Of a stretch of DNA of 16,327 nucleotides, positions 1-15,553 are shown one piece after another. The translations under genes were made by a program, and so were the position numbers. The notes beneath the pieces were generated by a model. It was given only the letters and a program-made list of their open reading frames with translations. It did no database searches and was not told the DNA's origin. Numbering within the stretch: the first letter of the stretch is position 1; each line of letters begins with the position of its first letter. Origin of the DNA: Clostridia bacterium (GTDB taxonomy: Bacteria; Bacillota_A; Clostridia; Christensenellales; CAG-138); NCBI GenBank assembly GCA_017553815.1, contig JAFZJT010000091.1, positions 1 to 16,327 of the forward strand, in the 5' to 3' direction.

Positions 1-1000
1 TCATATGCCTCGCGGCTTACGGTTTCGGCAAGGCGCTTATATATCTCCAGCGCCTCAAGATACAGCTTCTCAGCCTCGGCCATTCTGCCGTTATCCGCAT
101 AGAAAAGGCCGAGGTTGTTGCAGGTATCCGCCACATACGGCTCATACGCCTTGCGGCTTACGGTTTCGGCAAGGCGCCTTCTTATCTCCAGTGCCTCAAG
201 ATAAAGCTTCTCCGCCTCGGTCGGCTTGCCAAGCTTTTCATAGTATAAGACGCCGAGGTTGTTGCATGTATGCGCCACATCCGGCTCATACGCCTCGCGG
301 CTTACGGTCGAAGCTAAGCGCTTTCTTATCTCCAGCGCCTCAAGATACAGCTTCTCAGCCTCGGCAGGCTTGCCGAGCTTTTCGTGATATAAAGCGCCGA
401 GGTTGTTGCAGGTCATCGCCACATCCGGCTCATAGGCTTCGCGGCTTACGGGCTCGGCATGGCGCCTATAAACTTGCAGCGCCTCAAGATACAGCTTCTC
501 CGCCTCGGCCATTCTGCCGTTATCCGCATAGAAAATGCCGAGGTTGTTGCAGGTCGTCGCCACATACGGCTCATACGCTTCGCGGCTTACCGTCTCGGCA
601 AGGCGCCTTCTTATCTCCAGCGCCTCAAGATACAGCTTCTCCGCCTCGGCAGGCTTGCCATTATCATCATAGAAAGCTCCGAGGTTGTTGCAGGTCATCG
701 CCACATACGGCTCATATGCCTTTCGGCTTACGGTTTCGGCAAGGCGCTTATATATCTCCAGAGCCTCAAGATACAGCTTCTCAGCCTCGGCAGGCTTGCC
801 GTTGTTCTTATAGAGAATGGCGAGGTTGTTGCAGGTCATCGCCACATCCGGCTCATACGCCTCGCGGCTTACGGTCTCGGCAAGGCGCCTTCTTATCTCC
901 AGCGCCTCAAGATACAGCTTCTCCGCCTCGGTCGGTTTGCCGTTATCCGCATAGAAAGCGCCGAGGTTGTTGCAGCCAAGTGCAACACTGTCTTCATTAT
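1..1000 (-). repeat. In-frame tandem repeats encoding TPR units (141/144 bp)
   Basis: The marker cgaggttgttgca recurs at 110, 254, 398, 539, 680, 821 and 962, giving spacings of 144, 144, 141, 141, 141 and 141 bp. All are multiples of three, so the TPR frame is kept. The 144-bp units carry one extra codon in the inter-helix loop (E-K-L-G-K instead of D-N-G-K). Units are almost identical in DNA as well as protein, which points to recent amplification or gene conversion. The array continues past the left edge. Confidence 0.9.
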
Positions 1001-2321
1001 CCGGCGTGGGATCGGCCTTGAATATGCTTCGCGCAATCGCAAGCGATTCAAGATAGACCGCCTCGACCTTTTGAAGATTCTTATTGGCGTCATACAGCGT
1101 GCCCAGCAGATTCAGCAGGTTTGCGCGTGCTTGATCGCTTATCTTGCCTCGGTTATCCGGATCATCATAGATATGCTTGAGCTTCTCGGCTATCGCAATC
1201 GCTTTGGGATAATTCTTCTGACCGTACAAAAAGGCTGCGTAGTCATAGATAAAACCATAATCCTTCGCGTTTTTCGCCGCCTCGTAGGCGCTTTCATAGG
1301 CATGCTCGATCTCGTTGAAGCGATTCGGGTTTTCAAGATCGGTTTCCAATGCCATTATTCGGATGCGGATATCCTCAACAATGTTTTTATCCTCAACGAG
1401 AAGCTGCGCTTCAGCAAGCTCCCTTCTGCCGCGTTGGGCTTCGGCGCGCATATCCATCTCTTCGCGGGTAATGAGCGCCTGAACCGCCCTGCTGTCGCCA
1501 TGTTCAAGAAGCCGCAGCGCTTCCATACGGCGCGGATCGGGCTTTTCATTCCTGCGGTTTAGCTCATGAAAATACATGATCTGCTTAAGAAGCGCGCTTT
1601 CAAGCTCGTGGTATTCCTTCCGCACTTCCCCGAGTTCACCCGATATCCTCAGCGCCTCGTCCGCATCGCCGTTTGCGGAGGCGTTGGTCATATCCTTCAG
1701 AAGACTATCCATGCGCTCCTTGAGCTTTTTCAGATTCGGATTATTCTGATACGCAAACACGTTCGCCGCAGAGATATCCTTGATAAGCGCGCCGTTCATA
1801 TACACAGCGCCGTCCTTGACGACCAGCTCGCCCCTGCCGGGAAGCTGATCCATCAGGAACTGCAAAAGCTCGAGCTTCACCGTGTCCACGTCGTCGAACA
1901 TCTTATAGTAGTGTCCGTAATCATCGAAAACAAGGCTGACCGCCCTTTGGATATCGTCGTTTATTATATCCGGAGCGCCGTCCACCGCCTTGAAGAAGAC
2001 GAACACGTTCGGCTTGCCCTTCTCAAGGAAAGCCTGCCGAGCAAGCTCGAGCTCCTTCATGGTGAATTCGCCCGCCTTATGGAAGAACATAAAAATCGTT
2101 GCATCCGCATTGCCGCTTATGTAGTCATTGTGCATTTTCTGCGAGCCGCCCGCGCGCATATCGTTTGGCGTTTCCTCGCAGATATAGCCCTCGATGAAGA
2201 CGCCGCGCTCGTGGTACTTGTTGTTCAGCCCCTGAATAAAGCTCATAAGCTTCATTCGCTCCAGCTCGAGGTCAATTATCGACGAGCCGATAAAGATGCG
2301 GATGGTTTTTTCGGTTTTCAT
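1..2321 (-). CDS. DUF4062/TIR-like N-terminal domain with long TPR array (3' end outside window)
   Basis: Open from the ATG at 2321 to the window edge: 773 codons, no stop. The start follows GGAGG with 7-nt spacing. Residues 1-175 form an alpha/beta domain with FIGSS (10-14), an ER pair (21-22), GGSQ (58-61) and AGEFTMKELEL (83-93), ending in a PNVFVFFK strand. This resembles DUF4062 and TIR-like (STIR) domains, in which the strand-1 loop and a later helix Glu matter; TIR-like activity is inference. A charged helical linker (about 200-330) follows, then divergent TPRs, then at least seven near-identical 47/48-residue TPR units with C-N-N-L-G and E-A-E-K-L-Y-L-E-A-L-E cores. TPR arrays usually bind partners or act as sensors. 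It is the last visible gene of the operon, 149 nt after the domain-only paralog. A cytoplasmic sensor/effector is likely; the C-terminus is not visible. Confidence 0.85.
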   Translation of the reverse strand, partial: MKTEKTIRIFIGSSIIDLELERMKLMSFIQGLNNKYHERGVFIEGYICEETPNDMRAGGSQKMHNDYISGNADATIFMFFHKAGEFTMKELELARQAFLEKGKPNVFVFFKAVDGAPDIINDDIQRAVSLVFDDYGHYYKMFDDVDTVKLELLQFLMDQLPGRGELVVKDGAVYMNGALIKDISAANVFAYQNNPNLKKLKERMDSLLKDMTNASANGDADEALRISGELGEVRKEYHELESALLKQIMYFHELNRRNEKPDPRRMEALRLLEHGDSRAVQALITREEMDMRAEAQRGRRELAEAQLLVEDKNIVEDIRIRIMALETDLENPNRFNEIEHAYESAYEAAKNAKDYGFIYDYAAFLYGQKNYPKAIAIAEKLKHIYDDPDNRGKISDQARANLLNLLGTLYDANKNLQKVEAVYLESLAIARSIFKADPTPDNEDSVALGCNNLGAFYADNGKPTEAEKLYLEALEIRRRLAETVSREAYEPDVAMTCNNLAILYKNNGKPAEAEKLYLEALEIYKRLAETVSRKAYEPYVAMTCNNLGAFYDDNGKPAEAEKLYLEALEIRRRLAETVSREAYEPYVATTCNNLGIFYADNGRMAEAEKLYLEALQVYRRHAEPVSREAYEPDVAMTCNNLGALYHEKLGKPAEAEKLYLEALEIRKRLASTVSREAYEPDVAHTCNNLGVLYYEKLGKPTEAEKLYLEALEIRRRLAETVSRKAYEPYVADTCNNLGLFYADNGRMAEAEKLYLEALEIYKRLAETVSREAY

Positions 2322-2388
2322 ATGCTTTCCTCCAGTATGGAATCATCGTCAACTGTCCGTTATAGGACTTTTGCAGATATAGTCGATT

Positions 2389-2420
2389 CGCCCCGTCAAA
2401 GCAAGACGTTCGGCGGGGCG
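2389..2420 (-). other. GC-rich stem-loop between two operon genes
   Basis: A perfect 7-bp inverted repeat (CGCCCCG at 2389-2395, CGGGGCG at 2414-2420) lies in the 149-nt gap between the 166-aa gene and the TPR gene. A competing inner stem (CGTC/GACG) is possible. No T-run follows on either strand, so it is not a standard intrinsic terminator. It could be an RNA-processing or stabilising element that sets the relative level of the TPR gene. Function is inferred. Confidence 0.4.
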
Positions 2421-2470
2421 GGTGGTTAATCTGCGCAATAAATAACCATAGCGGCCGTTCGCAGACTCAT

Positions 2471-2971
2471 CTATACGTTATCTGCAATTTCTGGCAGAAT
2501 TTCGCGAATAGCCTGCGTTAAATCAAGCTGCACCGTTTCGATATCGCTAAACAATTTATAGTAATGACCATATTCATCAAATATACGGGCAGCTACATTC
2601 TGCACTGCGGGATCGGCAAAGCTTCCATCATCAGCCGTCTTAAAGAAAACATAGATATTCGGTCTTCCCTTTTCAATGAATGTCTCCCTTGAAAGTTCAA
2701 GCTCCTTCAGCGTGAACTCGCCTGCCTTTGTGTAAAACATAAACACGGCGATATCCGCCTTATCAGTTATGAATTCATCGTGCAGCTTCTGCGAGCCGCC
2801 CGCGCGCATATCGTTCGGAGTTTCCTCACAGATATAGCCCTCGATGAAGATGCCGCGCTCGTGGTATTTGTTGTTGAGTCCCTGAATGAAGCTCATCAGC
2901 TTCATTCGCTCCAGCTCGAGGTCGTTGATCGATGAGCCGATAAAGATGCGGATGGTTTTTTCGATTTTCAT
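2471..2971 (-). CDS. Stand-alone DUF4062/TIR-like domain protein
   Basis: 166 aa. I chose the ATG at 2971 because AGGAGG sits 8 nt upstream; an in-frame ATG at 3022 would overlap the CARF gene and lacks such a site. The protein is a single domain matching residues 1-170 of the downstream TPR protein: FIGSS (10-14), ER (21-22), GGSQ (58-61), AGEFTLKELEL (83-93), then PNIYVFFK. Like that domain it resembles DUF4062/TIR-like folds. The first 180 nt and the ribosome site are nearly identical in DNA to the TPR gene's start, so the two arose by duplication. It lies 35 nt downstream of the CARF nuclease in the same operon. It may be an effector subunit, an adaptor or a competitor of the TPR paralog; enzymatic activity cannot be judged from sequence. 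Confidence 0.8.
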   Translation of the reverse strand: MKIEKTIRIFIGSSINDLELERMKLMSFIQGLNNKYHERGIFIEGYICEETPNDMRAGGSQKLHDEFITDKADIAVFMFYTKAGEFTLKELELSRETFIEKGRPNIYVFFKTADDGSFADPAVQNVAARIFDEYGHYYKLFSDIETVQLDLTQAIREILPEIADNV

Positions 2972-3006
2972 TATGCTTTCCTCCTGTTGTTTGGTGTTAT
3001 CCTGCG

Positions 3007-4266
3007 CTATGCTTTTGACCACAGCACTTTGATTTCTTTATAGAGCTTGTCTTCGTTCCATTCTTCAACGTCGCCTATCAGATTTATCTGCATATCATTG
3101 CAGCGCTCGATGATTGCGGCTTTATTTGAGTTTTTCTCAAGCATAGGCGCGATCAAAACCTTTTTAGCGTATTTTCCGCCGAACTTATTGGCAACGCTTT
3201 GCAGCTTGTACAGTTCATCGGCTGAAAAATTCCCGTTTTTGCAAGATACGAATACCGGGATCATACCGCGCATCATAATAACGTCAACTTCGTTTTCGGC
3301 CCCGGGTGCAAACCGCTTTTCCTGCAGCTCGCCATCCCAATCGAGAAAAACGCCTGTCATGACGTCGTTGTATGTCGGATTTCCGTTCTTTTCCTTTGCT
3401 TCAAGCGCGGCAAGATAGACGATGAGCTCGAGCGCTTGTCCGCTTTTTGTAAGACATCGTTTGATCTGTTCGTTCTTGTACTCGATATGCACAGGTTTGC
3501 TTTTATCAAATTCAAAGGAGCTGATCAGTTTTGCTTTGATCAGTTTTTTTATCAATTCGTTGTTGAATAAGTATCTGTTTCTTCCGTTTCTTTCTTGATG
3601 ATCCAATAATACATCTCGTGAACATACAGTGACTTCAGGCTCCGTATCGGGCTCTCTGTACAATTCGGCAGCGCCGAGCACGTCCATCTGCCAATTCCAC
3701 ATGCCGCAATCCTCTTTGCATATGCTCCACAGCGTGCGGATATCCCGTTTGAATTCTTCGTTCATATCCCACAAATGCGTTGTGTCGGCCATTTCGTCCT
3801 CATAGATCACTCTGCCGCCATACAGACTTACGTTGTCTTCAACTGTAAAGCTCAGCGGATTATCCTGAGAAATCTTCTCACCGTCCATATCACAATCGTA
3901 GGTGACACCGCTGCGGATATTTATGTAATGCACCTGAATGTTTTTGTCCCTGTGCCGCTCGCATACAATGCCTGCCGCAAAAATGTAAAGATCCTCACCG
4001 CCGGTAACGTCGATGATGCAGTCGGGATACTGCTCGATTATTTCTTCGAGAGTCTTGACTATGGTGGCTACATCGTTTTTATTTATGTTTTTGCATTTGA
4101 AGTCGATATCATGTCCGTGCTTAAGGAAAAACTCCCTGTATCTTTGGGCGTGATCATTCAGCAAGCCTTTCTGATAGCCGACAAGAATAACTCGCTCCGG
4201 CGCGTGAACGATGCTTGTACAAATGTTTTCCACAACGCTCTTTTCAAAGAATTCTATAAGTGTCAT
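3007..4266 (-). CDS. CARF-PD-(D/E)XK nuclease, Card1/Can2 (DUF1887)-like
   Basis: 419 aa. The N-terminal half is a CARF-type Rossmann domain: a first strand with V-I-L-V-G-Y (26-31) and the characteristic D-V-T-G-G-E-D ligand loop at 86-92. After a linker/winged-helix-like middle, the C-terminal nuclease carries G-Q-A-L-E (E280), N-E-V-D-V (E326, D328) and V-S-C-K-N-G (K343), the layout of the DUF1887/Card1 fold where an acidic pair and a lysine bind metal. Characterised Card1/Can2 proteins are activated by cyclic tetra-adenylate from type III CRISPR and cut DNA and/or RNA; family knowledge suggests a similar ligand-gated nuclease, but no CRISPR is visible here. GGGGAG precedes the start. It lies 49 nt after the RyR gene and 35 nt before the DUF4062 gene. 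All catalytic positions appear intact. Confidence 0.85.
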   Translation of the reverse strand: MTLIEFFEKSVVENICTSIVHAPERVILVGYQKGLLNDHAQRYREFFLKHGHDIDFKCKNINKNDVATIVKTLEEIIEQYPDCIIDVTGGEDLYIFAAGIVCERHRDKNIQVHYINIRSGVTYDCDMDGEKISQDNPLSFTVEDNVSLYGGRVIYEDEMADTTHLWDMNEEFKRDIRTLWSICKEDCGMWNWQMDVLGAAELYREPDTEPEVTVCSRDVLLDHQERNGRNRYLFNNELIKKLIKAKLISSFEFDKSKPVHIEYKNEQIKRCLTKSGQALELIVYLAALEAKEKNGNPTYNDVMTGVFLDWDGELQEKRFAPGAENEVDVIMMRGMIPVFVSCKNGNFSADELYKLQSVANKFGGKYAKKVLIAPMLEKNSNKAAIIERCNDMQINLIGDVEEWNEDKLYKEIKVLWSKA

Positions 4267-4314
4267 ATTCTCCCCATGTACGGCTTGATTTTTCTGCTAG
4301 TCATTTACTCTTCA

Positions 4315-4623
4315 TCATTGATCGGTCTTATCCGCTTGCTCCGGGATTATCCGATAACCGAGCTTGATAATGAGTTTCAGCGTTTCAAATGCCGTATTGC
4401 GATCATAGTCCTTTTCGCTTTCGCTTAGTTGACCGTAAGGAACAAGAAGCGGCGTTGTTTTCTTGGCGTCGTCTTTTTTCTTACCGTATTTCCAGCCCTC
4501 GGCGATCCTGCCCGCGGCCCATACGTCGTGCATGTTTTCGGCGATGAGTTCCGTAAGCTTTGTGAGTTCTTCCGGGAGCTCGATCGCGCTTGTGTCCATT
4601 GGTTTCGGTGTGTATTTAGTCAT
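4315..4623 (-). CDS. Free-standing RyR (ryanodine receptor repeat) domain protein
   Basis: 102 aa, essentially one RyR domain (Pfam RyR, about 90 aa). Hallmarks are A-E-N-x-H-D-V-W-A-x-x-R-I-x-E-G-W-x-Y-G at 28-47, then P-L-L-V-P-Y-x-x-L at 58-66, E-K-x-Y-D-R-N at 70-76 and T-L-K-x-I-x-x-L-G-Y at 81-90. Stand-alone bacterial RyR domains are known, and comparative work on nucleotide-centred conflict systems proposed them as small-molecule (nucleotide-derived ligand) sensors; their ligand is not established. AGGAG sits 7 nt before the ATG. There is no membrane segment, so it should be cytosolic. It lies between the TrkA/RyR membrane protein, which has its own RyR-like tail, and the CARF nuclease, so a sensing or adaptor role is likely. 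Identification is secure; function is inferred. Confidence 0.93.
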   Translation of the reverse strand: MTKYTPKPMDTSAIELPEELTKLTELIAENMHDVWAAGRIAEGWKYGKKKDDAKKTTPLLVPYGQLSESEKDYDRNTAFETLKLIIKLGYRIIPEQADKTDQ

Positions 4624-4664
4624 GTTTCGGCTCCTTTAAATTCAGTTTTTTCTCCACGTTTTTC

Positions 4665-4691
4665 ATTATACTGTCGGTTTTTCCGGAAAAA
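4665..4691 (-). promoter_or_regulatory. Possible internal -10 box with 14-bp palindrome upstream of the RyR gene
   Basis: In the 155-nt gap before the RyR gene the minus strand has TATAAT (4665-4670). A perfect palindrome TTTTTCCGGAAAAA (4678-4691) sits where a spacer and -35 would be. No good -35 hexamer is present at 16-18 bp, so an unaided promoter is unlikely. An activated or repressed internal promoter, or simply AT-rich spacer, are the options. Confidence 0.25.
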
Positions 4692-4778
4692 TGCACAACA
4701 GTTGAAGTATATGAGATTATCGCATGGCATGTTAACCACCGGTTCTCCGTATCCGACCGGCGCACGGCAAACGATGCA

Positions 4779-7568
4779 TTACTCATATTCAGGATATTCG
4801 TACATTTTAAAGTCATACGTTCTGAAGTTTTTCTCCACGTATTCTTTCTTGAATCGCCTTGAAACTCCATCCAGCATATCATCATTATACATTTTCGATG
4901 CAAACAGGTCAGCTTTCATGCCTTGATCGTCGCACTCAACGATGCATGGATGCAGCTTAAGCTCTATGTTCTTATGCTTGCCCAAGTTGCAGCCCGTATT
5001 CAAAGTATCGTCGCACAGCTGAGCAATGTATGACGTCTCTTCGGCGATCTCCGGGCAGGTAAACCCCTCGGTTCTCATGAAGGCAGTCCATCTGCGGTGC
5101 TCAAGCCAAGCAAGCCTATGGAAAAGCTCGGGGCAGGCGGGTTCGCTGCTGCTTATAACATCGTCGATGGTTTTTTCTCCAGCGAGAAACGCTTTGATCG
5201 TCTCATTTAAGTAATTCTTGCACTCTTGGATATAGTTTCCCGGACTGCCCGCTTCAAATTCCTTCGCGGGATAATACCCTTCCCAAGTTTCCAAATGCTT
5301 ATCCGCATCAGCAAGCTTTTTCTCGATGCCTCCTCTCACCGTATCAGGCTCTATAATACTCCCCTCTATCCTATCAGGCTTGAATTCCTTCAAAGCGAAA
5401 TCTTCATAGCTTCTGAAGTTAGTCAAAATCGAGCTGACCAAGGTGTTCGTGCAAAGAAGCTCCAGCGTTCTTATCTCCGCTTTGCTCCCATCTTCGGATG
5501 CAATCCCATGCGACAGCGCTTTCTGATCCTCGCAAAAAGACTTGATCGCTTCTATCATACGGTAAGCATAGTCCTCGACCGTCAGCTTAAGCTTCCCTGC
5601 CTGTATTCCAATCGCAGTATCCGCTTCATTGATAATATTATTATCATTTGCTTCAGCGGCTTCAGGCTTCTGATTTTCGTCTTGCTTGCGCTGTTTCATG
5701 CGGTTTTGCATGTCTTCGATGTATGGTTTAACCCTATTCAGCTCCAATACCACACGGCGCCCGCACTCATCATTCAAAGAGTTGAGTGTGATATTGTCTA
5801 AAGCGGCATTGGTGTAGCTTCCGGGATATAACAGCGTGTTCTTAATGCTCGAAATGCTGCTTAAGAATCTGTACATCGCGATATAGCATACCTTTGCGGC
5901 GTCATTCCCGTCAGTACCGTTCGGCATATCAAGCGCCTGCGCCTTATAACCAAGGTGTATTGCTCTTGAAACATTCGCCCAATAGGAATAAGGATCCTTG
6001 GCATATTTACTCTCTTGAGCTTTGCTTCGCTTTTCCGCAATATTCTGCTCATAAGCGCTGCTGGAATCCTTTGCGTGTTCCTTTATGGATTCAATCAAAA
6101 CATTCTCCTCCGCAAATGTTTCATCCAAGGAACCAAACGGCCTTACCATTGCTCCGAAATAGCCTTCGCCATTAATATCGGTCAGCGTTTTGCTCAATTC
6201 TTCATCCCAAATAGAGCAGACGACCGGAACCGGTTTTTCGCGGCGCACTCCCTTGACGGTTACTATCCTTGCGATCTGTTCCGCAGCCTCAAGGTTTTTC
6301 TTATCTGTGCCGAGGGCGATCGCAAAGTAATCAAAATCCGCAAGTTTTCCGTTCTCTCTGTTCGGCTCGATGAGTATTGCCTCAAGGCCGTCCGCATACA
6401 CATCGCTTTCAATATACTCATAGCTGAAATATTCCGGTGCTTTTGGGGAGCCGTCTTGCTTTACTTGAAGCAGTTTGCAATCAGGCTCTGCCGTTTTAAG
6501 TATTTCATGGTTAATATGGTTTATTCTGCCCTCGAACAGATCGCGCCGCTCGTCCGAGATCACCGTTATCTTCAGTTTGCGGCCCAGCATCTGCCCGCAC
6601 CAATAGACGGCAAGGAAAAGCTCCACTCCGATTCTTCCGGAGCCAAATATCGCAACTCTTATCAAGCCGTTCTTTTGCATGGAGTAATAAAGAGGCACCT
6701 TTTGAAGCAAATCGTAAACTATATTGCGGTGTCTGTTAACACTGAACAGCGTGATCCCCTTGGAGTTCTTGTCTTTATCTTTCATGCTTTGGTTTATCTT
6801 TTCGCGAATGCTTCTTTCAATCAACGTGCCGTAATTCTCATTTGCAAAAACGTATATGGTGTTTTTCTCGTTTAGCTTGTCCATCCTGCCCTTAGCCGTA
6901 AAAGAGCTCAGCGCGGCAAGATTATCTTCATCCGTTCCTATCAGGAAAAACTTTTTCTTCTCCCTACCGTCAAACTCAAGCTCCGAGAGGCTCGTTTTCA
7001 CAAGCACAGAACGAAGCCTCTTGGCTTTTTCACGGTTTTCATCGGAAATAGAATCATCATCGACGTCGGCGTCACAGAATATTAACCGCGGACGCTCGGT
7101 ATTTTCGGATGCTTGATCACCGCCCTGTTTATTATACTTGTTGTAAATGCTTTCTGCCAATGCGAGCGATTCGGGATTAAGCTTTGAAAAATAGTATAGC
7201 GGTCTTTGAGAGAATGCACGCGCAAACCAATGCTTTATGTTTGGAAACAGTTTGATAATGATTGTCAACAGCACCGCGCCGCCGGAGATAGCACATATCG
7301 GGTTTAGGATACTGATGTATATCTCGAAAAAACCTGCCATAGCCGGCATTTTCAAAGATTCTCTTAAAGCTTTGCTTCCGTCTACAAGGAAGCCGGTGTA
7401 ATCCGCATCCATAGTGAAGGATTGCATAGCATAGATAAAGCTATCCACCATTGACTTAAAAAGCCCGTACACGGGGTCGTCTTTTTCGGCAAACGCACCT
7501 GCACGGACGACCGCATATCTCACAAGCGTCGTTGCGTCAGGATAAGCAGCATAAACCCAATGCCGCAT
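4779..7568 (-). CDS. Membrane-anchored TrkA-N-like (double Rossmann) protein with RyR-like C-terminus
   Basis: 929 aa. Residues about 80-108 form a hydrophobic membrane segment (possibly a hairpin), followed by a basic stretch, so most of the protein should face the cytosol. Residues 205-290 look like a first Rossmann unit (K-K-F-F-L-I-G-T-D). Residues 302-460 form a second with V-A-I-F-G-S-G-R-I-G at 305-314, a dinucleotide-binding G-x-G-x-x-G loop as in TrkA-N domains. The end (about 815-890) carries L-E-H-R-R-W at 822-827 and K-L-H-P-C-I-V further on, matching key positions of RyR domains in degenerate form; Y-W-A-N-V-S-R-A near 529-536 may be its first half. The ATG overlaps the stop of the 64-aa gene (TAATG), implying translational coupling. 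It may sense NAD-like or nucleotide ligands at the membrane and act as effector or signal source; this is inference. Confidence 0.8.
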   Translation of the reverse strand: MRHWVYAAYPDATTLVRYAVVRAGAFAEKDDPVYGLFKSMVDSFIYAMQSFTMDADYTGFLVDGSKALRESLKMPAMAGFFEIYISILNPICAISGGAVLLTIIIKLFPNIKHWFARAFSQRPLYYFSKLNPESLALAESIYNKYNKQGGDQASENTERPRLIFCDADVDDDSISDENREKAKRLRSVLVKTSLSELEFDGREKKKFFLIGTDEDNLAALSSFTAKGRMDKLNEKNTIYVFANENYGTLIERSIREKINQSMKDKDKNSKGITLFSVNRHRNIVYDLLQKVPLYYSMQKNGLIRVAIFGSGRIGVELFLAVYWCGQMLGRKLKITVISDERRDLFEGRINHINHEILKTAEPDCKLLQVKQDGSPKAPEYFSYEYIESDVYADGLEAILIEPNRENGKLADFDYFAIALGTDKKNLEAAEQIARIVTVKGVRREKPVPVVCSIWDEELSKTLTDINGEGYFGAMVRPFGSLDETFAEENVLIESIKEHAKDSSSAYEQNIAEKRSKAQESKYAKDPYSYWANVSRAIHLGYKAQALDMPNGTDGNDAAKVCYIAMYRFLSSISSIKNTLLYPGSYTNAALDNITLNSLNDECGRRVVLELNRVKPYIEDMQNRMKQRKQDENQKPEAAEANDNNIINEADTAIGIQAGKLKLTVEDYAYRMIEAIKSFCEDQKALSHGIASEDGSKAEIRTLELLCTNTLVSSILTNFRSYEDFALKEFKPDRIEGSIIEPDTVRGGIEKKLADADKHLETWEGYYPAKEFEAGSPGNYIQECKNYLNETIKAFLAGEKTIDDVISSSEPACPELFHRLAWLEHRRWTAFMRTEGFTCPEIAEETSYIAQLCDDTLNTGCNLGKHKNIELKLHPCIVECDDQGMKADLFASKMYNDDMLDGVSRRFKKEYVEKNFRTYDFKMYEYPEYE

Positions 7569-7762
7569 TACTCAAACGGAATATGCCTGCCTCTGTACGT
7601 TGAATGAAACACTGCATATTTAAAGAATCTTTTCACGGCGAATGCAAATGCAATAACGGATAATACTATAAAAATCACAGCCCAACCTTTGCTTATCAAG
7701 TTGTTCTGAGCAGCGTTATCGGCTGTATCACTCGCTACTGAAAACATGAAAGAATCCAACAT
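7568..7762 (-). CDS. Small single-pass membrane protein, first gene of the RyR/CARF operon
   Basis: 64 aa. Residues about 27-44 (W-A-V-I-F-I-V-L-S-V-I-A-F-A-F-A-V) form one membrane helix. It is followed by K-R-F-F-K, so the C-terminus is predicted cytosolic and the short acidic N-terminus outside. GGAGG lies 9 nt before the ATG. Its TAA shares one base with the ATG of the 929-aa gene (TAATG), a tight coupling suggesting the two proteins form one complex in a fixed ratio. No family is recognised. Possible roles are an anchor, a pore partner, or an inhibitor of the large membrane protein. Coding status is supported by the promoter, ribosome site and coupled junction. Confidence 0.75.
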   Translation of the reverse strand: MLDSFMFSVASDTADNAAQNNLISKGWAVIFIVLSVIAFAFAVKRFFKYAVFHSTYRGRHIPFE

Positions 7763-7797
7763 TAAACAAAGCCTCCATTACACATTGTTTTTAGGAT

Positions 7798-7826
7798 ATT
7801 ATATCAAACTCGATACTGTTTTTCAA
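7798..7826 (-). promoter_or_regulatory. Sigma-70-type promoter of the RyR/CARF operon
   Basis: On the minus strand the -35 TTGAAA (7821-7826) and -10 TATAAT (7798-7803) are separated by exactly 17 bp. The predicted start of transcription is near 7790, about 28 nt before the first ATG (7762). This is the best housekeeping promoter upstream of the six-gene operon. I saw no convincing operator next to it, so expression may be constitutive, consistent with a system controlled by ligand at the protein level. Confidence 0.75.
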
Positions 7827-7979
7827 CCAAAGCCTCGTTATGCACTTCTTATTTGATAAACCGATTTAAACGCCCTTTTTCGCAAGCCATATCTCAAGCA
7901 GGTTCAAAAATCGCATATCTTTAAAGAATAAGCAGCAGTGCCGAAATAGCATTGACACCGCCGCTTTACAATAGCCAAA

Positions 7980-8640
7980 TCAGTTGCTTTGCTTGCACTT
8001 TCCTTCAAGCAAAGCTTTAATCTCGTCTCCTGTCATACGGCTTTTCGCAAGCAGTTCTTCAACGAGTTTATCCATCACGGATCGGTTGGATTTAATAATG
8101 TCTATAGTGTTTTTCATCTCATTATCGAGAACCTTATTCACGGCGGTTCTGACCTGACTCGACAACTCGCCGTTCCTGGCCGACTGATAATCGATGACGG
8201 CAAGTCCAAAGTCTTCATCCATACCGTAGCCGCACATAAGGCTCATTGCTGTTACCGTAGCCGTATTCAGATCTCCTCCTGCACCCGTCGACAGTCCGTC
8301 CTCCTCGCCATAATAAACGATTTCGGCTGCACGACCGCCAAGAGCGATACGAATCCTTGACAGCAATTCCTGTTTTGTATAAATACCTTTGTCTTCATTG
8401 TCACCGTGCTGCATATAGCCGCCGTAGTTGCCCCTTGCAACGATCGTTAAATACGACGGCGTTTCGCCGCTCATCCAGCACAGCAAAGCATGACCCGCTT
8501 CGTGTCTGGCAGTGCGCTCCAAAGCGGCTTCGCTCCTCTTTCTGGTTGCTCCGCCGGTAAAGGTTTCAAAAGCTTCTTCAAGCACTCTGTCGGTAACGTT
8601 CATATTGCCGGCGCGGATCGCCATTCTCAAGGATATTCTA
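7980..8640 (-). pseudogene. FtsH-type AAA/M41 protease remnant: peptidase module only
   Basis: The 216 residues readable from TTG at 8630 begin in the AAA lid (L-R-M-A-I-R-A-G, E-E-A-F-E). They continue through a complete M41 zinc peptidase: H-E-A-G-H at 43-47, G-G-R-A-A-E at 98-103 and a third metal ligand in G-D-L-N-T-A-T (D120). FtsH relatives usually exceed 500 residues; the N-terminal membrane part and the whole ATPase (Walker A/B, SRH) are absent. An in-frame stop lies a few codons upstream (about 8663), and the frame runs straight into the 3' edge of the truncated permease gene with no ribosome site. I therefore call it a deletion remnant. A translated peptidase without its unfoldase is possible but would lack substrate delivery. 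The zinc motifs have not decayed, so the event may be recent. Confidence 0.75.
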
Positions 8641-9058
8641 TCTGCTTTCGCACGGCATAAAAAGCCTCCCGCTCAGCATTTGCCAGCAGGGGCTCATCCA
8701 AACACCTCTGAAAATAGCCGCCGTTCAGCCTTTCGAGCACATCGGGCTTGGATTCGAGCCAGCTAACGAACGAGTCATCCATGCCGATCAAAGTGATATG
8801 AGATGAGATCGAGTCCGCGCGCTCTATCCAAAGCAGCTTTTCATCGAGCTCATCATACGTTATCTCATCGGGTTTTCTATCGCCGTATTCCGCTATAAAC
8901 GAGTGATAGGCTTCGTTATACAATCCCTTTGCGCCGACCTCATCTCCGCCTTTTATCGGCAGTATGCACAGCACGACGGAGAGCGCACTCAAAAGCGCAA
9001 GCATAAACAGAGCAGTTTTGCCGAATAAAACCCTTCTCAGCTCGCGCATATCATTCAT
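8627..9058 (-). pseudogene. ABC-2-type permease remnant (N-terminal part only)
   Basis: About 143 residues from M-N-D-M-R-E-L. One membrane helix (about 14-32, F-M-L-A-L-L-S-A-L-S-V-V-L-C-I-L) is followed by a soluble extracytoplasmic region rich in Asp, Glu and Tyr. ABC permeases of this layout have a large loop after TM1 and then five or more further helices; these are missing. The frame ends at the junction with the FtsH remnant. The start overlaps the end of the ABC ATPase gene by a few bases (several in-frame ATGs at 9061, 9058 and 9049; 9058 is chosen as the compromise), typical of an ATPase-permease pair. Family assignment rests mainly on gene order and the TM1 layout. The product cannot form a transport channel. 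Confidence 0.6.
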
Positions 9059-9769
9059 CATCCCCGAGGAAATGCATATACACGTCCTCAAGATCGCGCC
9101 CGTTCGCTTCCTCAATGAGCTCGGCGGGCGTGCCGTGTGCCACGAGCTTTCCCTTTTTCATTAGGATAACGTCGTCCGCGATGGTCTCGATATCGCTTAC
9201 GATATGCGTAGACCAAAGCACAATGCATTCCTTTGCAAGCTCGTGAACGTAGCTTCTTATGCGTATGCGCTCCTTTGGATCGAGCCCCGCAGTGGGTTCG
9301 TCGATTATTATCAACTTTGGCGCGCCCAATAGGGCTTGGCAGAGGAGCACCCTTTGGCGCATACCGCCCGAAAAGCCGCCCAGCTTTTTATGGGCAGCAT
9401 CCGAAAGGTTCACAAGCTCAAGAAGGCGCATTACCTGCGCCTTTGCCTCCTTCCCCTTTATTTCTTTTAGCTTTGCGATATAAAGCAGGAAGGAATACGC
9501 GTTCATCTCGTCATACATACCCTGCTGCTGTGGCATATAGCCGAGCTTTTCGCGAAAAGCTTTGCCGAGCGCGAGCACGTCCTTGCCATTAAAAAGTATC
9601 TCGCCGCCGTCGCGCGAAACGTTGTCCGTGATGAGGTTCATCATCGTGGATTTGCCCGCGCCGTTTGCGCCGAGTATGCCGCAGATGCCCTTTGAAAAGG
9701 TGTATGAAAAATCATCGAGCGCAATCTTTTGCCCGTAGCGCTTGGTAAGTTTTTTAGTTCAAGCTCCAT
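9051..9769 (-). pseudogene. ABC transporter ATPase, frameshifted near codon 7 (or recoded)
   Basis: Adding one base gives a 239-aa ABC ATPase. From ATG 9769 the frame reads M-E-L-E-L-K-N, then must move -1 to continue L-T-K-R-Y-G-Q, on to Walker A G-A-N-G-A-G-K-S-T, Q-loop P-Q-Q, signature F-S-G-G-M-R-Q-R, Walker B L-I-I-I-D-E-P and switch S-T-H. The downstream frame has a stop five codons before the break and its first ATG (9644) lies after Walker A, so a product from there would not bind ATP. The break sits in T6 on the plus strand (9750-9755), read as A-AAA-AAC on the coding strand, a -1 slippery heptamer in the correct register. GGGGG precedes the start. Options are a deletion, an assembly error, or programmed frameshifting. 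The partner permease is truncated, which favours decay. Confidence 0.85.
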
Positions 9770-9824: not shown

Positions 9825-11159
9825 TTACCATCTGCGCCAGATCGGGTTTCCCGCCGCTATCTCGCTCTTATCCAGATACCACGTGGGTATCGAACAGGCA
9901 ATTGAGATGCTTCCGTCCTCGCCGGGAGGTTCGGCAAAGATATAGCTCTCGGTTTGAAGAATGAACTATGTTTCCAAGAAATCCTCCGGCATATCCTCAT
10001 AAAGGTACTTTGATACCACGCTGCCGTCCGTATCGGTTACGTATAAGCCCCAATTCGGCCGCGTTTCCTCCTCGGGGTCGTCGTTATAGCCATTGTAGGA
10101 TTTAAGATAGTAACCGTTCGTGTAATCAAGATAAGTATGCCACTTCGAGCTGTAGATATCATCCGTTGAATAGTGAAGCCGTTTTTCGCCCGTTTCTATA
10201 TCCATGCCCCAAAGCCGCATCGCGCTTAGATCCGCCCGATCCGCGGTAACGTACAGTATCTCCCCGTCCTTAACGCCGTAGCACTCATTCAAAGCGTAGA
10301 ACCATTCCCGTTCGGTTCCGATCTCCCGCGCCTCTTCGGTTTTAATATTGTATTCATAGAATCTAACTATGTACTCATCGTTTTCGCCTCCAATATGTCC
10401 AACGCCATAGACGATATCCCCGCTTGAGTATATCGGAATGCCCATTCCGCTCTCCCACGAGCGCACCTCCATCGTATCGAGGCATATCATAAACAGGGCG
10501 CTGTCCGGAACACCGCCCATTGCCACGCTCTTTTTGTACGCGGTATGCGTTATGAACAGATACTTGTTTAAAAAAACGAAGCTCCATGCCGTATACTCCG
10601 GCGTGTAATCGAGCTCCTTTTCCGGAAGGCGCATTACCTCCTCGTTCTGCATGCCGTCGAGCCGCATCCGACAGAGCGACGGATGTGTAACTTGATTAGG
10701 TTCGCCCTCGCCTACGTTATATACTATGTAGTAGATATAGCGGTCGTAGATCCAGATACTCATATTCATAGCGTCCGCTCTTGCGTCGCAGTTGCCGTTC
10801 CTATGATTGCAGTTCGGCTTGGCGCAGAGCGGCAGAAACTCCTTATAGACCTTGTCGCTGACGTATATCATGCCTTCAAAAAGGTAATAAACAGCGTCAT
10901 CTGTTTCAAGGATCGGCGTATACGGTAGCATAAGGCTGGCTTCCGCCGTGCGGCGAAAATCGAAGCAATAGCTCTTTTCGTCCGGCAATGCGGTCTGCTT
11001 TGCCGCATCGGGTGTTTCGTTGAGCTTGCCGCTTTCCGCGCCATTCGTTTCAAAGCCTGCTGGCCTCGGCGTCTGCACCGGTTCGTTTACAACCGAGCAG
11101 GCATAAAGAATGATTATTATCATTAATGAAAGCAAAACATAAGCGCTCCTCTTTATCAT
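9825..11159 (-). pseudogene. Surface lipoprotein of the P-L-C/N-C-x-H family with an in-frame amber codon
   Basis: I start at ATG 11159 (M-I-K-R-S-A-Y), preceded by AAAGGTG, rather than the longer frame from 11240. It begins with a lipoprotein signal peptide: hydrophobic core and lipobox L-Y-A-C. The body is repetitive and beta-rich (Tyr/Trp-laden strands, propeller-like), with L-P-L-C-x-K-P-N-C-x-H and a third Cys soon after, a likely metal or disulfide knot seen in many uncharacterised Clostridia lipoproteins. It stops at TAG 9966-9968 (397 aa). The same frame then stays open for 46 codons (F-I-L-Q-T-E-S-Y...I-P-T-W-Y-L-D-K-S-E-I) to TAA 9825-9827. The last part matches the end of the sister lipoprotein (L-P-G-W-Y-L-D-I-K-E-L), so the amber codon is internal. 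TAG ends the intact CARF gene, so general recoding is unlikely. Loss of the C-terminal strand is the simplest reading. Confidence 0.75.
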
Positions 11160-11219
11160 TTGACACCTTTCTCCCTTGGTGCAAGATTTACCTTTTGATA
11201 TAATACTTCCGACAATGCA

Positions 11220-11265
11220 GGAATGCGAAGATACATTCAAAATATCATGTTCATCCCCGCATTCC
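11220..11265. repeat. 8-bp inverted repeat in the 173-nt gap between the two lipoprotein genes
   Basis: GGAATGCG (11220-11227) and CGCATTCC (11258-11265) are perfect inverted copies around a 30-nt AT-rich centre. No T-run follows, so it is not a terminator. It could be an operator or a loose hairpin in the leader of the downstream lipoprotein. The remainder of 11160-11332 shows only that gene's ribosome site and no convincing promoter. Confidence 0.35.
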
Positions 11266-11332
11266 CATGCATAGTGGTTTAGAGTTTTTTGCAGTTGAAT
11301 GTTACTTAGTGTAGTTCAACGCGAAAGAGCAT

Positions 11333-12537
11333 TTAATCCTCCGGCGCCCAGCTGTGCCAACCAAAGCTATCCGTGCCGAGCTCCTTAATATCCAGATACC
11401 ATCCGGGAAGCGCGGTGGAATCCGAATTCGCCGCACTTCTTTCGTATCCGAATACGAAATCACCGATTATCTTGCTTATGATAGTATCCGGTTCGCCCTC
11501 CGAATGGGGCATCTCTAAGACAAGGTTACCCAAAACGTCGCTCACCTCGGTTCCCGCAAGTGACGGAACCGCGCTCGTATTGCTGCCGAAAATGTAATCT
11601 CCATATGGATAATACCATCGGCGGGTCTGCGGCTCGGCGGAAGCGATCGTAGATAGCTTCCCGCTTTCAGTGTCGATGCGGAAGCTTTTCCCAAGCTCCC
11701 AACCTTCGGCAAAGATAAGGGCGCCATCCTTAAGCATGCAGGAAAACAGCTCCGGCACAAACGGAAGAACAAACACGCGCTGAGCCGTTCCGGCATCGAG
11801 ATCGGCTTTGATAAGCTCATTTCTTCCCTTTCCGCAAATACAATAAAGCTCGTTTCCGTTTCCGGCAATGGGTTCTCCCAACGAAACTCCATCCGGCAGA
11901 TCAAGACGTACTGCTTTCAAATCCTTTGAGCTCAGATCTATCCTATAGGTCTCGGTTGAAAACCCGCCCCGCTCAAAATTTATCAGATGATACATAACAA
12001 CGGCGTATTTATTATGAAAATACCACTCGTATGCATATGCAGCCCCACTGTTTTCCCTGTCTTCAAAATAGGTGCAAAGCTTATCGTGTGCGCTGCCGTC
12101 AAGCTCCATTCGCCATAGCTCCAACGCGCTCCTTCCCTCGGTGTCGGTCCTGATCAAATAATAGATATGCGACCCATAAAGCCACACTTTATTTGAAGCA
12201 TCACCCTCGAGGATCGAGGAGCAGTCTGCTGTCGTATGCTGGCAATTCGGTTTTCCACAGAGCGGCAGCCACTCCTTATTGCATTTATCGCTGAAGAACA
12301 GTTGGTACTCATTTGCCGATGTGAAACACAGATAATAGACCGTTTCTTCGGTCTCAAAAATCTGCTCCATACCCGCGCTTGCATAAACGGAACATAGGTC
12401 GACCGTATAGAATGATGTTGGTTCGGCAGCCTCGGTACCGGAGCTTGACGGAGTGCAGCATATATTGCAAACTATTGAGCTGAGCAGCAAAAAAGAACTT
12501 TAAGCAGCTTGCACTTTTCACACTTTACAATTCTCAT
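11333..12537 (-). pseudogene. Second P-L-C/N-C-x-H lipoprotein, frameshifted in its signal peptide
   Basis: From ATG 12537 (ATGA overlap with the stop of the upstream gene) the frame reads M-R-I-V-K-C-E-K-C-K-L-L-K-V-L-F and then hits a stop. With one T added to the run of six (A6 at 12489-12494 on the plus strand) it continues L-L-L-S-S-I-V-C-N-I-C-C-T into a 401-aa protein: a basic N-terminus, hydrophobic core and Cys-rich lipobox. The rest is intact and resembles the neighbouring lipoprotein: L-P-L-C-G-K-P-N-C-Q-H plus a following D-C, Tyr/Trp-rich strands, and a C-terminal L-P-G-W-Y-L-D. Initiation at TTG 12490 would give a protein without the positively charged start of a signal peptide. 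It is probably a surface accessory protein of the adjacent ABC transporter. Deletion, sequencing error or P-site slippage on the T-run are the alternatives. Confidence 0.78.
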
Positions 12538-13544: not shown

Positions 13545-14861
13545 GTGAGCGATATACTTATCCATGCATACGAATGGCTGATCTGCTTAGGGGAAGCAGT
13601 GGTTGTGTTTCTTTTATTCAAAAACAGATTCAACTGCACGAAGCCGAGACCGTATTTGGCTCTTGCAGGTATTCCTGTAATAGCAAGCTGCACTTTTGTT
13701 ATGAATCTGCTTTCGATCCCGTGGGCAATTCTTGCGCTGATCAGCATAGCCATTCACCTTGTCTACGCTTTTCTCTTTTTTGACGGCACCCCTACCCTTA
13801 AATATATTTGGGTGGACGTTCCGTTCGTTATCTTCTGCGTTTCCAACTATCTGTGCCTGATAGTTTTGTATGCTGTAACCGACTGGGGAGGATTGGGGCT
13901 CATCCCCGGCAATACTATCAGGGTGTTCGGGCAGTTATTCTATACGGCAATCAATTTCAGCATAGCGTTTTTTTTAATGCGTGTTAAAAATGAAGGCAGC
14001 GAGCTGCCCGCGGCGCTTCGCGCCGGTACGATATTGCTGTCGTTCATAGGAATTGCCGTTGCAATGTATTGCTTTTCCGAAATGGTATCGCCCGGTAATG
14101 CAGATATACCGACAGTATCATGGATGCTGTGTACCTCCGTGCTCGTATTGAGCGCCGCGCTTCTGCTTTTATCCGGATACCTCTCACGTCTATACCACAG
14201 GCAGCTTGAAACGCAGAAGGAGCTTCAAAAAACGAAGCTTGAAGCAGAGCACGTTTCGCAGGTTTCGGCGATGTACGACCACGTGCGCGGATTCAGGCAC
14301 GATATGAGCGGAATGATATCAACCGTGCTGAGCCTTGCCGAAAACGGCGAATACGAAAGCATGAAGGCTTATCTGCGGGAGATGAACGGAGCCGCCGAGG
14401 AAACGAGGCTCATTATAAACACGAGCAATCCTGCGATAGACGCAACCGTTTCCGCCAAGCTCATGCTTGCGGATAACTATGGGATAAAGGTGGAGCATAC
14501 CGTCTCCGTTCCGAAAAACATCAACATCGACAGCACCGATGTTTGCTCAGTTATAATGAATCTTATGGACAATGCGATAGAAGCGGTGTGCACTCTGCCG
14601 AGCGGTATGCGCAAAATCGACTTTTCAATGATAGACAAAGGCGGCATGCTCAGCATAGGTGTTAAAAACACCTGTATCGGCAGCTATCATTACGACGGCG
14701 GAAAACTGCTGACCACGAAGAATGACGGCGCGGTACACGGAATAGGTCTGACCCGCGTCGGCCGCATCGCGGCAAAGCACGACGGCTTTATGAAGGTGGA
14801 ACCGAAGCAGAATAGCTTTGAAGTAAATGTTCTGCTACCCATCCCGGATAAAACGATATGA
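13545..14861 (+). CDS. agrC: AgrC-like sensor histidine kinase (HPK10 type)
   Basis: 438 aa from GTG, with AAAGGGG 6 nt upstream. Residues 1-212 hold about seven membrane helices (for example 11-25, 36-56, 60-79, 88-111, 128-146, 160-178, 191-213), the usual peptide-sensing domain of AgrC. A coiled linker (217-240) leads to the phospho-acceptor box R-G-F-R-H-D-M-S-G (H252). The ATPase part has the N box N-L-M-D-N-A-I-E-A (339-347) and a G box H-G-I-G-L (398-402), a GHKL ATPase of the HATPase_c_5 type. Its stop overlaps the agrA start (ATGA). By family role it binds the cyclic peptide outside and phosphorylates AgrA inside. The divergent agrD gives the likely ligand. Intact. Confidence 0.92.
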   Translation: MSDILIHAYEWLICLGEAVVVFLLFKNRFNCTKPRPYLALAGIPVIASCTFVMNLLSIPWAILALISIAIHLVYAFLFFDGTPTLKYIWVDVPFVIFCVSNYLCLIVLYAVTDWGGLGLIPGNTIRVFGQLFYTAINFSIAFFLMRVKNEGSELPAALRAGTILLSFIGIAVAMYCFSEMVSPGNADIPTVSWMLCTSVLVLSAALLLLSGYLSRLYHRQLETQKELQKTKLEAEHVSQVSAMYDHVRGFRHDMSGMISTVLSLAENGEYESMKAYLREMNGAAEETRLIINTSNPAIDATVSAKLMLADNYGIKVEHTVSVPKNINIDSTDVCSVIMNLMDNAIEAVCTLPSGMRKIDFSMIDKGGMLSIGVKNTCIGSYHYDGGKLLTTKNDGAVHGIGLTRVGRIAAKHDGFMKVEPKQNSFEVNVLLPIPDKTI

Positions 14862-15553
14862 GAATAGCATTATTTGAGGACAATGGTGAGCATGCGGCAA
14901 AGCTCACGAATCGCATTCAACTATGGGCGGATCAAAGCGGAAAGCGGATCACCGTAACGCATTTTGCCTCCGCGTTTGAAGCAAAGGAGCTTTTATTATT
15001 CGACTGCATCCTTCTTGATGTTGAGATGCCGGGAATGGACGGCATTGAGTTCGCCCGCGAAATACGCGCAAGCGGAAACAAGGTGCCAATAGTTTTTGTT
15101 TCAAGTCATACCGAATACAGCATTGACGGTTATGAGGTTAACGCGCTGCGATTTATCGACAAGAATGCCTCCGATTTCGAACGCAGACTGTTTGAATGTA
15201 TGGATAAGACCGCGTATGAGGTGGAAAACAGCCTTAACGCATACTACAATATCCGCGCGAGCCGAAAGCTGATCAGTATTCCACTGCATGAAATACTGTA
15301 TTTCGAGATCCTCGATCACAATTTGATAGTGCATACCGTTTCCGGCGTTTTCATTGAGCGCAAAACCTTTTCGGAACTTAAAAAAGAACTTCCAAAGCAA
15401 TTCGTCCAGATAGGCAGATCTCATATTGTAAATGTGCTTCAAGCCGGACAGATAACCTCAAAGCAGATCGCGCTTCGAAACGGTGAAACGCTGATCGTTG
15501 CCCCGAAGTATTCTTCGATACTGTTTGAAGCTTTTATGTCAATCAGAAGTTAG
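14858..15553 (+). CDS. agrA: AgrA-like response regulator, receiver plus LytTR DNA-binding domain
   Basis: 231 aa. The receiver domain (1-120) has the acidic pocket E7-D8, phospho-acceptor D54 in I-L-L-D-V-E-M-P-G, S82/S83 in the position of the switch Ser/Thr, and K102. The LytTR domain (about 135-230) shows E-I-L-Y-F-E, F-V-Q-I-G-R-S-H-I-V-N and a closing K-Y-S-S-I-L-F-E-A-F. LytTR regulators bind paired 9-bp direct repeats; such a pair lies upstream of agrD. It is translationally coupled to agrC by a 4-base overlap. The expected role is activation of agrD (autoinduction) and of the secretion/lipoprotein genes beyond it. No sign of damage. Confidence 0.92.
   Translation: MRIALFEDNGEHAAKLTNRIQLWADQSGKRITVTHFASAFEAKELLLFDCILLDVEMPGMDGIEFAREIRASGNKVPIVFVSSHTEYSIDGYEVNALRFIDKNASDFERRLFECMDKTAYEVENSLNAYYNIRASRKLISIPLHEILYFEILDHNLIVHTVSGVFIERKTFSELKKELPKQFVQIGRSHIVNVLQAGQITSKQIALRNGETLIVAPKYSSILFEAFMSIRS

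Follow-up and report, generated by a model that had tools for sequence, protein, structure and literature searches.

The window analysed here, 16,327 nucleotides of contig JAFZJT010000091.1 from a Clostridia bacterium (assembly GCA_017553815.1), carries on its minus strand a row of genes around P0002, a protein of 929 amino acids that resembles an RCK-gated channel and ends in a RyR-type domain. Our best explanation, held tentatively, is that this row represents a nucleotide-signalling system of modular build, in a copy that has partly decayed, in which TIR/DUF4062 proteins would make a signal, RyR domains would read it, the channel would serve as effector and a CARF nuclease of the Card1 type as second effector. 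The parts, their recurrence and the architecture joining channel and RyR are well supported by sequence and structure model; the ligand, the channel activity and a role in defence are what we infer. Observed directly are the recurrence of the parts, the channel-like and TIR-like predicted folds, the conserved RyR residues, the rarity of Cas10 and SMODS in the searched genomes and the damage to the window copy. No description of this gene combination was found in the literature, in a search falling short of one highly relevant preprint on TIR systems.

Gene row in the window

Along the minus strand the row consists of an open reading frame (ORF) for an M41 peptidase (8630-7980), a membrane ORF of 64 amino acids (7762-7568), P0002 (7568-4779), a single RyR-domain protein (P0003, 4623-4315), a Card1-type CARF nuclease (P0004, 4266-3007), a TIR/DUF4062-like protein (about 2971-2471) and a second TIR/DUF4062-like protein with TPR repeats, which extends from 2321 to the window edge. 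The window thus unites Card1 with DUF4062-like proteins, and parts of it are lost. A preliminary description of this DNA had taken the last six for intact genes in one direction under one good promoter. The common direction holds, but intactness does not, as the channel gene is split and the TPR gene runs off the window edge. A promoter-like site, TTGAAA-17-TATAAT, is present on the same strand (7826-7798, 11 of 12 consensus positions), but such sites are no commoner in positions 1-9000 of the window than in shuffles (12 versus 12.0).

A predicted RCK-gated channel

Predicted membrane helices and a tandem RCK fold place the central protein, according to the structure model, in the superfamily of RCK-gated channels. 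The model of the homologue P0009 resembles GsuK, DMI1/CASTOR and TrkA, over residues 42-589 in the matches listed, a span that leaves out the RyR-type part. Foldseek returned 12 matches to the channel model at E<=0.001; KCC transporters, dipicolinate synthase and SPY came first, and Slo2.2 ranked twelfth. The viral structure library gave no match at E<=0.001, and a sequence search for solved relatives of the channel gave none at E<=0.1. P0002 itself matched nothing in Pfam at E<=0.1, and among 54 of its relatives TrkA_N matched three (best E 0.034) and RyR none at the same threshold. The identity of P0002 as a TrkA/RyR protein, proposed earlier, is therefore right in kind, resting on the structure model, on profile comparison and on bridging relatives, but is unsupported by plain Pfam search. 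The potassium filter motif T-x-G-Y/F-G was found in none of the 54 relatives, which have a conserved F-S-M-D-E-D-Y-T-like stretch in its place. An earlier suggestion that the membrane protein senses damage or a nucleotide survives in altered form: it now looks like a ligand-gated channel, receptor and effector in one, rather than a damage sensor.

In the window a stop and a shift of frame inside the second membrane helix break this gene in two, and the stop of the 64-residue ORF overlaps the ATG of P0002. We conclude this because the first helix lies in the 64-residue ORF, because homology in the frame of P0002 picks up again within the second helix, near residue 54 of P0009, and because the start of P0002, which lacks the beginning of that helix, scores low in hydropathy (best 0.54, as against 1.43 for the second helix of P0009). 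The small membrane gene, formerly counted as a component of its own, is ruled out as such, since in the full-length homologues P0007-P0012 this segment forms the N-terminus of the channel protein. The exact P0002 sequence of 929 amino acids was found on four contigs, the longest of 39,531 bases.

At four loci (L004, L021, L036 and L037) the full-length channel has a paralogue next to it that measures about 600 amino acids and lacks most of the RyR-type end; the two could form mixed channels. Among viral contigs there were 20 pattern matches, of which none was confirmed.

RyR-type domains

The C-terminal domain of P0002 covers about residues 790-929 (4782-5201, minus strand; limits approximate). 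Its residues H824, W827, H873 and D900 are invariant in an alignment of 12 proteins (12/12), which is free of the selection that affects the larger sample: in 87 ORFs from the loci the four positions are kept in 87, 87, 85 and 79, counts that are biased because the loci were found with the patterns EHRRW and LHPC and the ORFs were chosen by EH..W (87/88). Comparison of the channel C-terminus with RyR domains by hhalign gave a probability of 71.6 and a score of 33.5, compared with at most 3.1 and 18.3 in 60 column shuffles; a narrower comparison with fewer RyR sequences had given a probability of 23.6, which rose to 71.6 after animal RyR repeats and distant relatives were added. One member of the channel family (L101) bridges the two groups by passing the Pfam RyR cut-off (28.0 versus 27.4 bits), a cut-off (PF02026) that the C-terminus of P0002 does not reach, its case resting on profile similarity and binding residues. 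The single RyR protein P0003 (102 amino acids) is a firm member of PF02026 (E=3.9e-36; 123.6 versus 27.4 bits), and its matches in PDB are Bacteroides thetaiotaomicron and animal RyR chains. Of the two RyR modules proposed earlier, that of P0003 is secured by Pfam, and that of P0002 rests on profile and residues, with Pfam silent. A strong single-RyR match was obtained 29 times, in 28 of the 44 genomes searched.

The sections consulted of the 2026 preprint PMC13232231 describe a phage RyR protein, RyDEP, in which H75 and D117 serve to cleave 2'/3' cyclic ADP-ribose (cADPR) and W78 and H100 contact it; six of eight homologues tested there bind the signals. Single RyR proteins keep H, W and D at the corresponding places (25/25 each), the positions being assigned by motif order rather than by alignment to RyDEP itself. 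Two unannotated human faecal phage records, MT837259.1 and MT836850.1, encode single RyR proteins that have 56-58% identity with P0003 and are possible counterparts of RyDEP. Separately, the channel profile retrieved P0073, a metagenome protein of 1497 amino acids in which a protein kinase is joined to an EHRRW...LHP stretch of RyR type.

Recurrence of the parts

Counts of neighbouring genes refer to the best 80 of 147 confirmed relatives in a genome scan. These loci come mostly from Clostridia metagenome bins, many of animal gut or rumen origin by title, with one from Cloacimonadota and one from a Faecalibacterium isolate; L042 and L043 stem from one bin. On the same strand, Card1 lies within 6 kb of the channel at 18 of the 80 loci, a single RyR within 3 kb at 22, and a tandem-AAA/M41 protease within 4.5 kb at 20, of which 17 lie within 50 bases. 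TIR proteins on the same strand within 3 kb occur at 13 loci by a TIR model whose seeds came from four of them, with about 0.5 expected, a figure derived with a different TIR model from 227 TIR_2 matches in 104 Mb of 44 genomes. TIR_2 matches are present in all 44 of these genomes; four of the TIR loci (L059, L061, L065, L070) look alike, and at L038, L074 and L075 the TIR gene lies on the other strand or farther away. Members of a 180-residue family, c6, adjoin the channel at nine loci (L057, L059, L061, L065, L066, L070, L072, L075, L080), never together with a single RyR (p=0.046); the c6 member tested had no Pfam match. Of the 80 loci, 47 have one or more of the partners Card1, RyR, protease, TIR and c6.

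Kinship ignored, Card1 and RyR occur together at 12 loci where 5.0 are expected (p=8e-5), and Card1 and protease at 11 where 4.5 are expected (p=2e-4). The 13 TIR loci and the 27 loci with Card1 or protease overlap nowhere (p=0.0027). This mutual exclusion in the sample indicates alternative modules around one channel family; a fixed six-gene system is ruled out, and the locus type is a modular network. The earlier expectation that the parts recur together therefore holds for Card1, RyR and TIR or DUF4062 near the channel or a single RyR, and fails for a fixed set of six. At L003 the genes for Card1 and channel are oriented divergently to those for RyR and DUF4062, so that four families of the window meet there.

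The peptidase ORF at the head of the row, overlooked in the preliminary description, comes from one of these partner families. It is the remnant of a tandem-AAA/M41 (FtsH-type) protease of which the peptidase end is left (7980-8636, minus strand, ORF 8630-7980; PF01434 E=8.9e-32), covering positions 952-1162 of a family model of 1165. Tblastn alignments of 18 relatives longer than 1100 amino acids begin at 8636 in 15 cases and at 8633, 8630 and 8609 in the others; two Walker A motifs and HE.GH occur in every one of the 18. AAA and M41 in one protein are thus found in the relatives, whereas the window ORF holds only the peptidase part. The 5' part of the gene is missing in the window, and a short ABC permease ORF adjoins the break.

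TIR and DUF4062 proteins

The shorter TIR/DUF4062-like protein has 166 amino acids (2471-2971, minus strand); the N-terminal domain of the longer one (1-2321), which is followed by TPR repeats (TPR_10 E=1.7e-68), is 65% identical to it. A TIR-like fold is predicted, as the preliminary description had it, but the DUF4062 label falls short, with scores of 15.3 and 14.3 bits against a Pfam cut-off of 24.7. The TIR-like model had no Foldseek match at E<=0.001. Both proteins of this exact pair occur near a channel at L058 and one at L046.

Elsewhere such domains come in several forms. TIR-LRR proteins adjoin the channel at L004 and L052; at L041 a protein with DUF4062 and an AAA-type domain is 614 bases away from the channel, and one with DUF4062 and AAA_16 (NACHT and nSTAND1 below cut-off) lies upstream of a single RyR at L071. 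L086 shows a row of RCK-like, RyR and TIR-LRR genes, and L085 one of channel-like, RyR and TIR-FtsK genes, in which the gene combining a TIR domain with an FtsK-type motor (2784-4544) directly follows the single RyR gene. Among the six window proteins there was no Pfam match at E<=0.1 to SIR2, SLOG or macro domains or to an effector of the ThsA type (SIR2-SLOG, macro-TM).

The Card1-type protein and possible sources of cyclic oligonucleotides

P0004 (419 amino acids) combines CARF with a PD-(D/E)XK-like nuclease of the Card1/Can2 type, clear from PF09002 (E=1.2e-6; 28.5 bits, cut-off 26.4), from PADLOC CARF4 (E=3.3e-31) and from the Can2 chain 7bdv (E=5e-6), and confirming the architecture first proposed. 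The preliminary description had also asked whether the CARF protein always accompanies type III CRISPR. Searches covered the genomes of 44 of the 80 loci, relatives' genomes rather than that of the window, with bin completeness unreported. Csm1 exceeded its cut-off in one genome (G010, among the 17 whose locus includes Card1) and Cmr2 in none of the 44, the 17 included, so that most of these relatives' genomes lack a Cas10 over cut-off. SMODS cyclases were found in two (G038 and G042), neither of them among the 17. Type III CRISPR or CBASS is disfavoured as the general source of signal by this rarity of Cas10 and SMODS.

Fusions also link the families. At L088, L090 and L091, proteins of 1392, 1440 and 1493 amino acids join a channel-family RCK and/or RyR-type region to a terminal Card1 nuclease region; the Pfam kinase is over cut-off at L088 and L091 and below it at L090, and the Pfam Card1 nuclease, of these three, at L091 only. 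The L089 protein shows the motif EHDRW...LHPC and ends in a Card1 nuclease that passes its cut-off; a TIR gene lies nearby. All four fused proteins have the motif ECK, and none matched Pfam RyR.

A tentative mechanism and its rivals

In the proposed mechanism, enzymes of the TIR/DUF4062 type, often fused to sensors (TPR in the window, and LRR, beta-propeller or AAA-type NTPase at other loci), would detect a trigger, for example phage infection, and turn NAD+ into a signal of ADP-ribose type. RyR domains would bind this signal, as their conserved binding residues and the available part of PMC13232231 on phage RyR proteins suggest, and binding may open the pore of the RCK-channel protein, upsetting the membrane. 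The single RyR protein might buffer or remove the signal, and the Card1-type CARF nuclease would be a second effector. CARF nuclease and TIR-like proteins had both been cast as executors; we keep the former as effector, and regard the TIR/DUF4062 proteins, which also bear sensor-like domains, as likelier makers of the signal. A more specific form of this reading, which we advance with slightly greater reserve, is that a bacterial channel gated by a RyR domain answers a cADPR-type signal from neighbouring sensor-fused TIR/DUF4062 enzymes, a prokaryotic circuit from cADPR to RyR, with an unusual acidic pore motif in place of the potassium filter; in some proteins a Card1-type nuclease and a kinase would be connected to the RyR-type domain as well.

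Several observations weigh against these proposals. Beyond the split channel gene and the separation of TIR from Card1 and protease loci, 33 of the 80 loci have none of the five partners in range (some at contig ends), and at L095 Card1, tandem-AAA/M41 protease and single RyR stand in a row (543-5592) with no channel match in 11 kb. The position of the phosphate-binding histidine, like H100, is T in 23 of 25 single RyRs, that of the window included; the catalytic motif S.W..E is present in six of the 11 neighbouring TIRs checked; and PADLOC gave no match for P0002, P0003 and P0005. ECK of two solved chains is replaced by SCK in all 19 aligned operon proteins, so that the nuclease activity of the Card1-type protein is uncertain. 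At E<=0.001, Cas10 matches become more frequent, with Csm1 in 13 of 44 genomes (one over cut-off) and Cmr2 in three (none over); G032 and G018 show weak matches to late parts of both models.

It is unlikely, though it is the strongest rival, that the channel serves physiology or a stress response, its RyR domain reading an ordinary adenine nucleotide (ATP, ADP-ribose or one related to NAD) so that the RCK channel sets ion balance, with no part in immunity. The protease, YbjN-like genes (10 of 80 loci) and a sigma-like gene (4 of 80) would then be quality-control partners; no TIR lies within 3 kb at any of the 27 Card1/protease loci, P0009 had no match in plasmid and phage records, and RCK relatives bind nucleotides or ions. 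Such a function accords poorly with neighbours linked to conflict, namely CARF nuclease and TIR/DUF4062, and with a patchy partner content as typical of defence loci. Somewhat less credible again is a chance meeting, in which an independent TIR/DUF4062-TPR pair landed downstream of a Card1/RyR/channel module. That the exact pair lies near a channel at so few loci and that Card1 and TIR loci are disjoint would fit; yet 36 bases, with AGGAGG among them, separate the Card1 stop from the TIR-like start, L003 groups Card1, channel, RyR and DUF4062, and other TIR proteins neighbour the channel at 13 loci. We consider it improbable that the Card1-type protein works, via cyclic oligonucleotides, for a type III CRISPR or CBASS system located at another place in the genome, the rest being passengers. 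CARF domains usually bind cyclic oligoadenylate, as far as the consulted portions of the literature go, and G010 has a full Csm1, but the 17 Card1-locus genomes, with the reservations given above, yielded that single Csm1 and neither Cmr2 nor SMODS.

Surroundings of the row

Beyond the protease remnant, an ABC transporter ATPase ORF is followed by the short permease-like ORF (8627-9644), which ends at the remnant junction and looks truncated. Two neighbouring ORFs of 424 and 385 amino acids (9966-12490) are paralogous and lipoprotein-like by eye, the first without Pfam match at E<=0.1. On the plus strand, a GHKL-type histidine kinase (PF14501) precedes an ORF resembling a response regulator by eye (13545-15553).

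Significance and comparison with known systems

If the proposed signalling system is real, a channel read out by a RyR-type domain would be a new class of receptor-effector in bacterial nucleotide signalling. It has long been asked whether ryanodine receptors are a direct target of cyclic ADP-ribose, and a small bacterial channel that carries a RyR-type domain and neighbours candidate signal makers would permit a reconstituted test of this. The system would also give Card1-type CARF nucleases a setting outside type III CRISPR, and might be what the host sets against the phage RyR proteins, as far as the sections consulted of PMC13232231 describe them.

Each known system shares part of this design. 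GsuK, CASTOR/DMI1, Slo and TrkA have predicted membrane helices and tandem RCK-like domains in common with our channel, which differs by lacking the potassium filter motif (54/54) and by its acidic-type stretch, RyR-type domain and extra first helix. Animal ryanodine receptors likewise are ion channels with RyR-type domains in the cytosolic part, whereas the predicted bacterial channel is far smaller, has an RCK-gated body and, in the window, a RyR-type domain too divergent for Pfam. Phage RyDEP, from what the same portions of PMC13232231 report, has H, W and D at the binding positions and resembles the single RyR proteins in size; the RyRs here are genes of a bacterial operon, and the single RyR of the window has T at the phosphate histidine. 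P0004 matches the type III accessory nucleases Card1 and Can2 in CARF and PD-(D/E)XK-like nuclease, but has SCK rather than ECK, relatives' genomes with Cas10 in one of 17 cases, and RyR, channel and protease as partners. The passages of PMC7159879 examined describe presumed conflict loci with a protein of two AAA domains, one of them FtsH-like, and do not mention RyR, TrkA or DUF4062; the protease here is similar in its two AAA domains and differs in carrying an M41 peptidase and in adjoining RyR and channel genes. In Thoeris, finally, a TIR enzyme makes ADP-ribose signals and is paired with an effector; here a candidate TIR-type enzyme lies beside a protein whose domain, in phage relatives, can bind 2'/3'cADPR, but the effector would be an RCK channel with a RyR-type domain, SIR2, SLOG and macro domains being unmatched.

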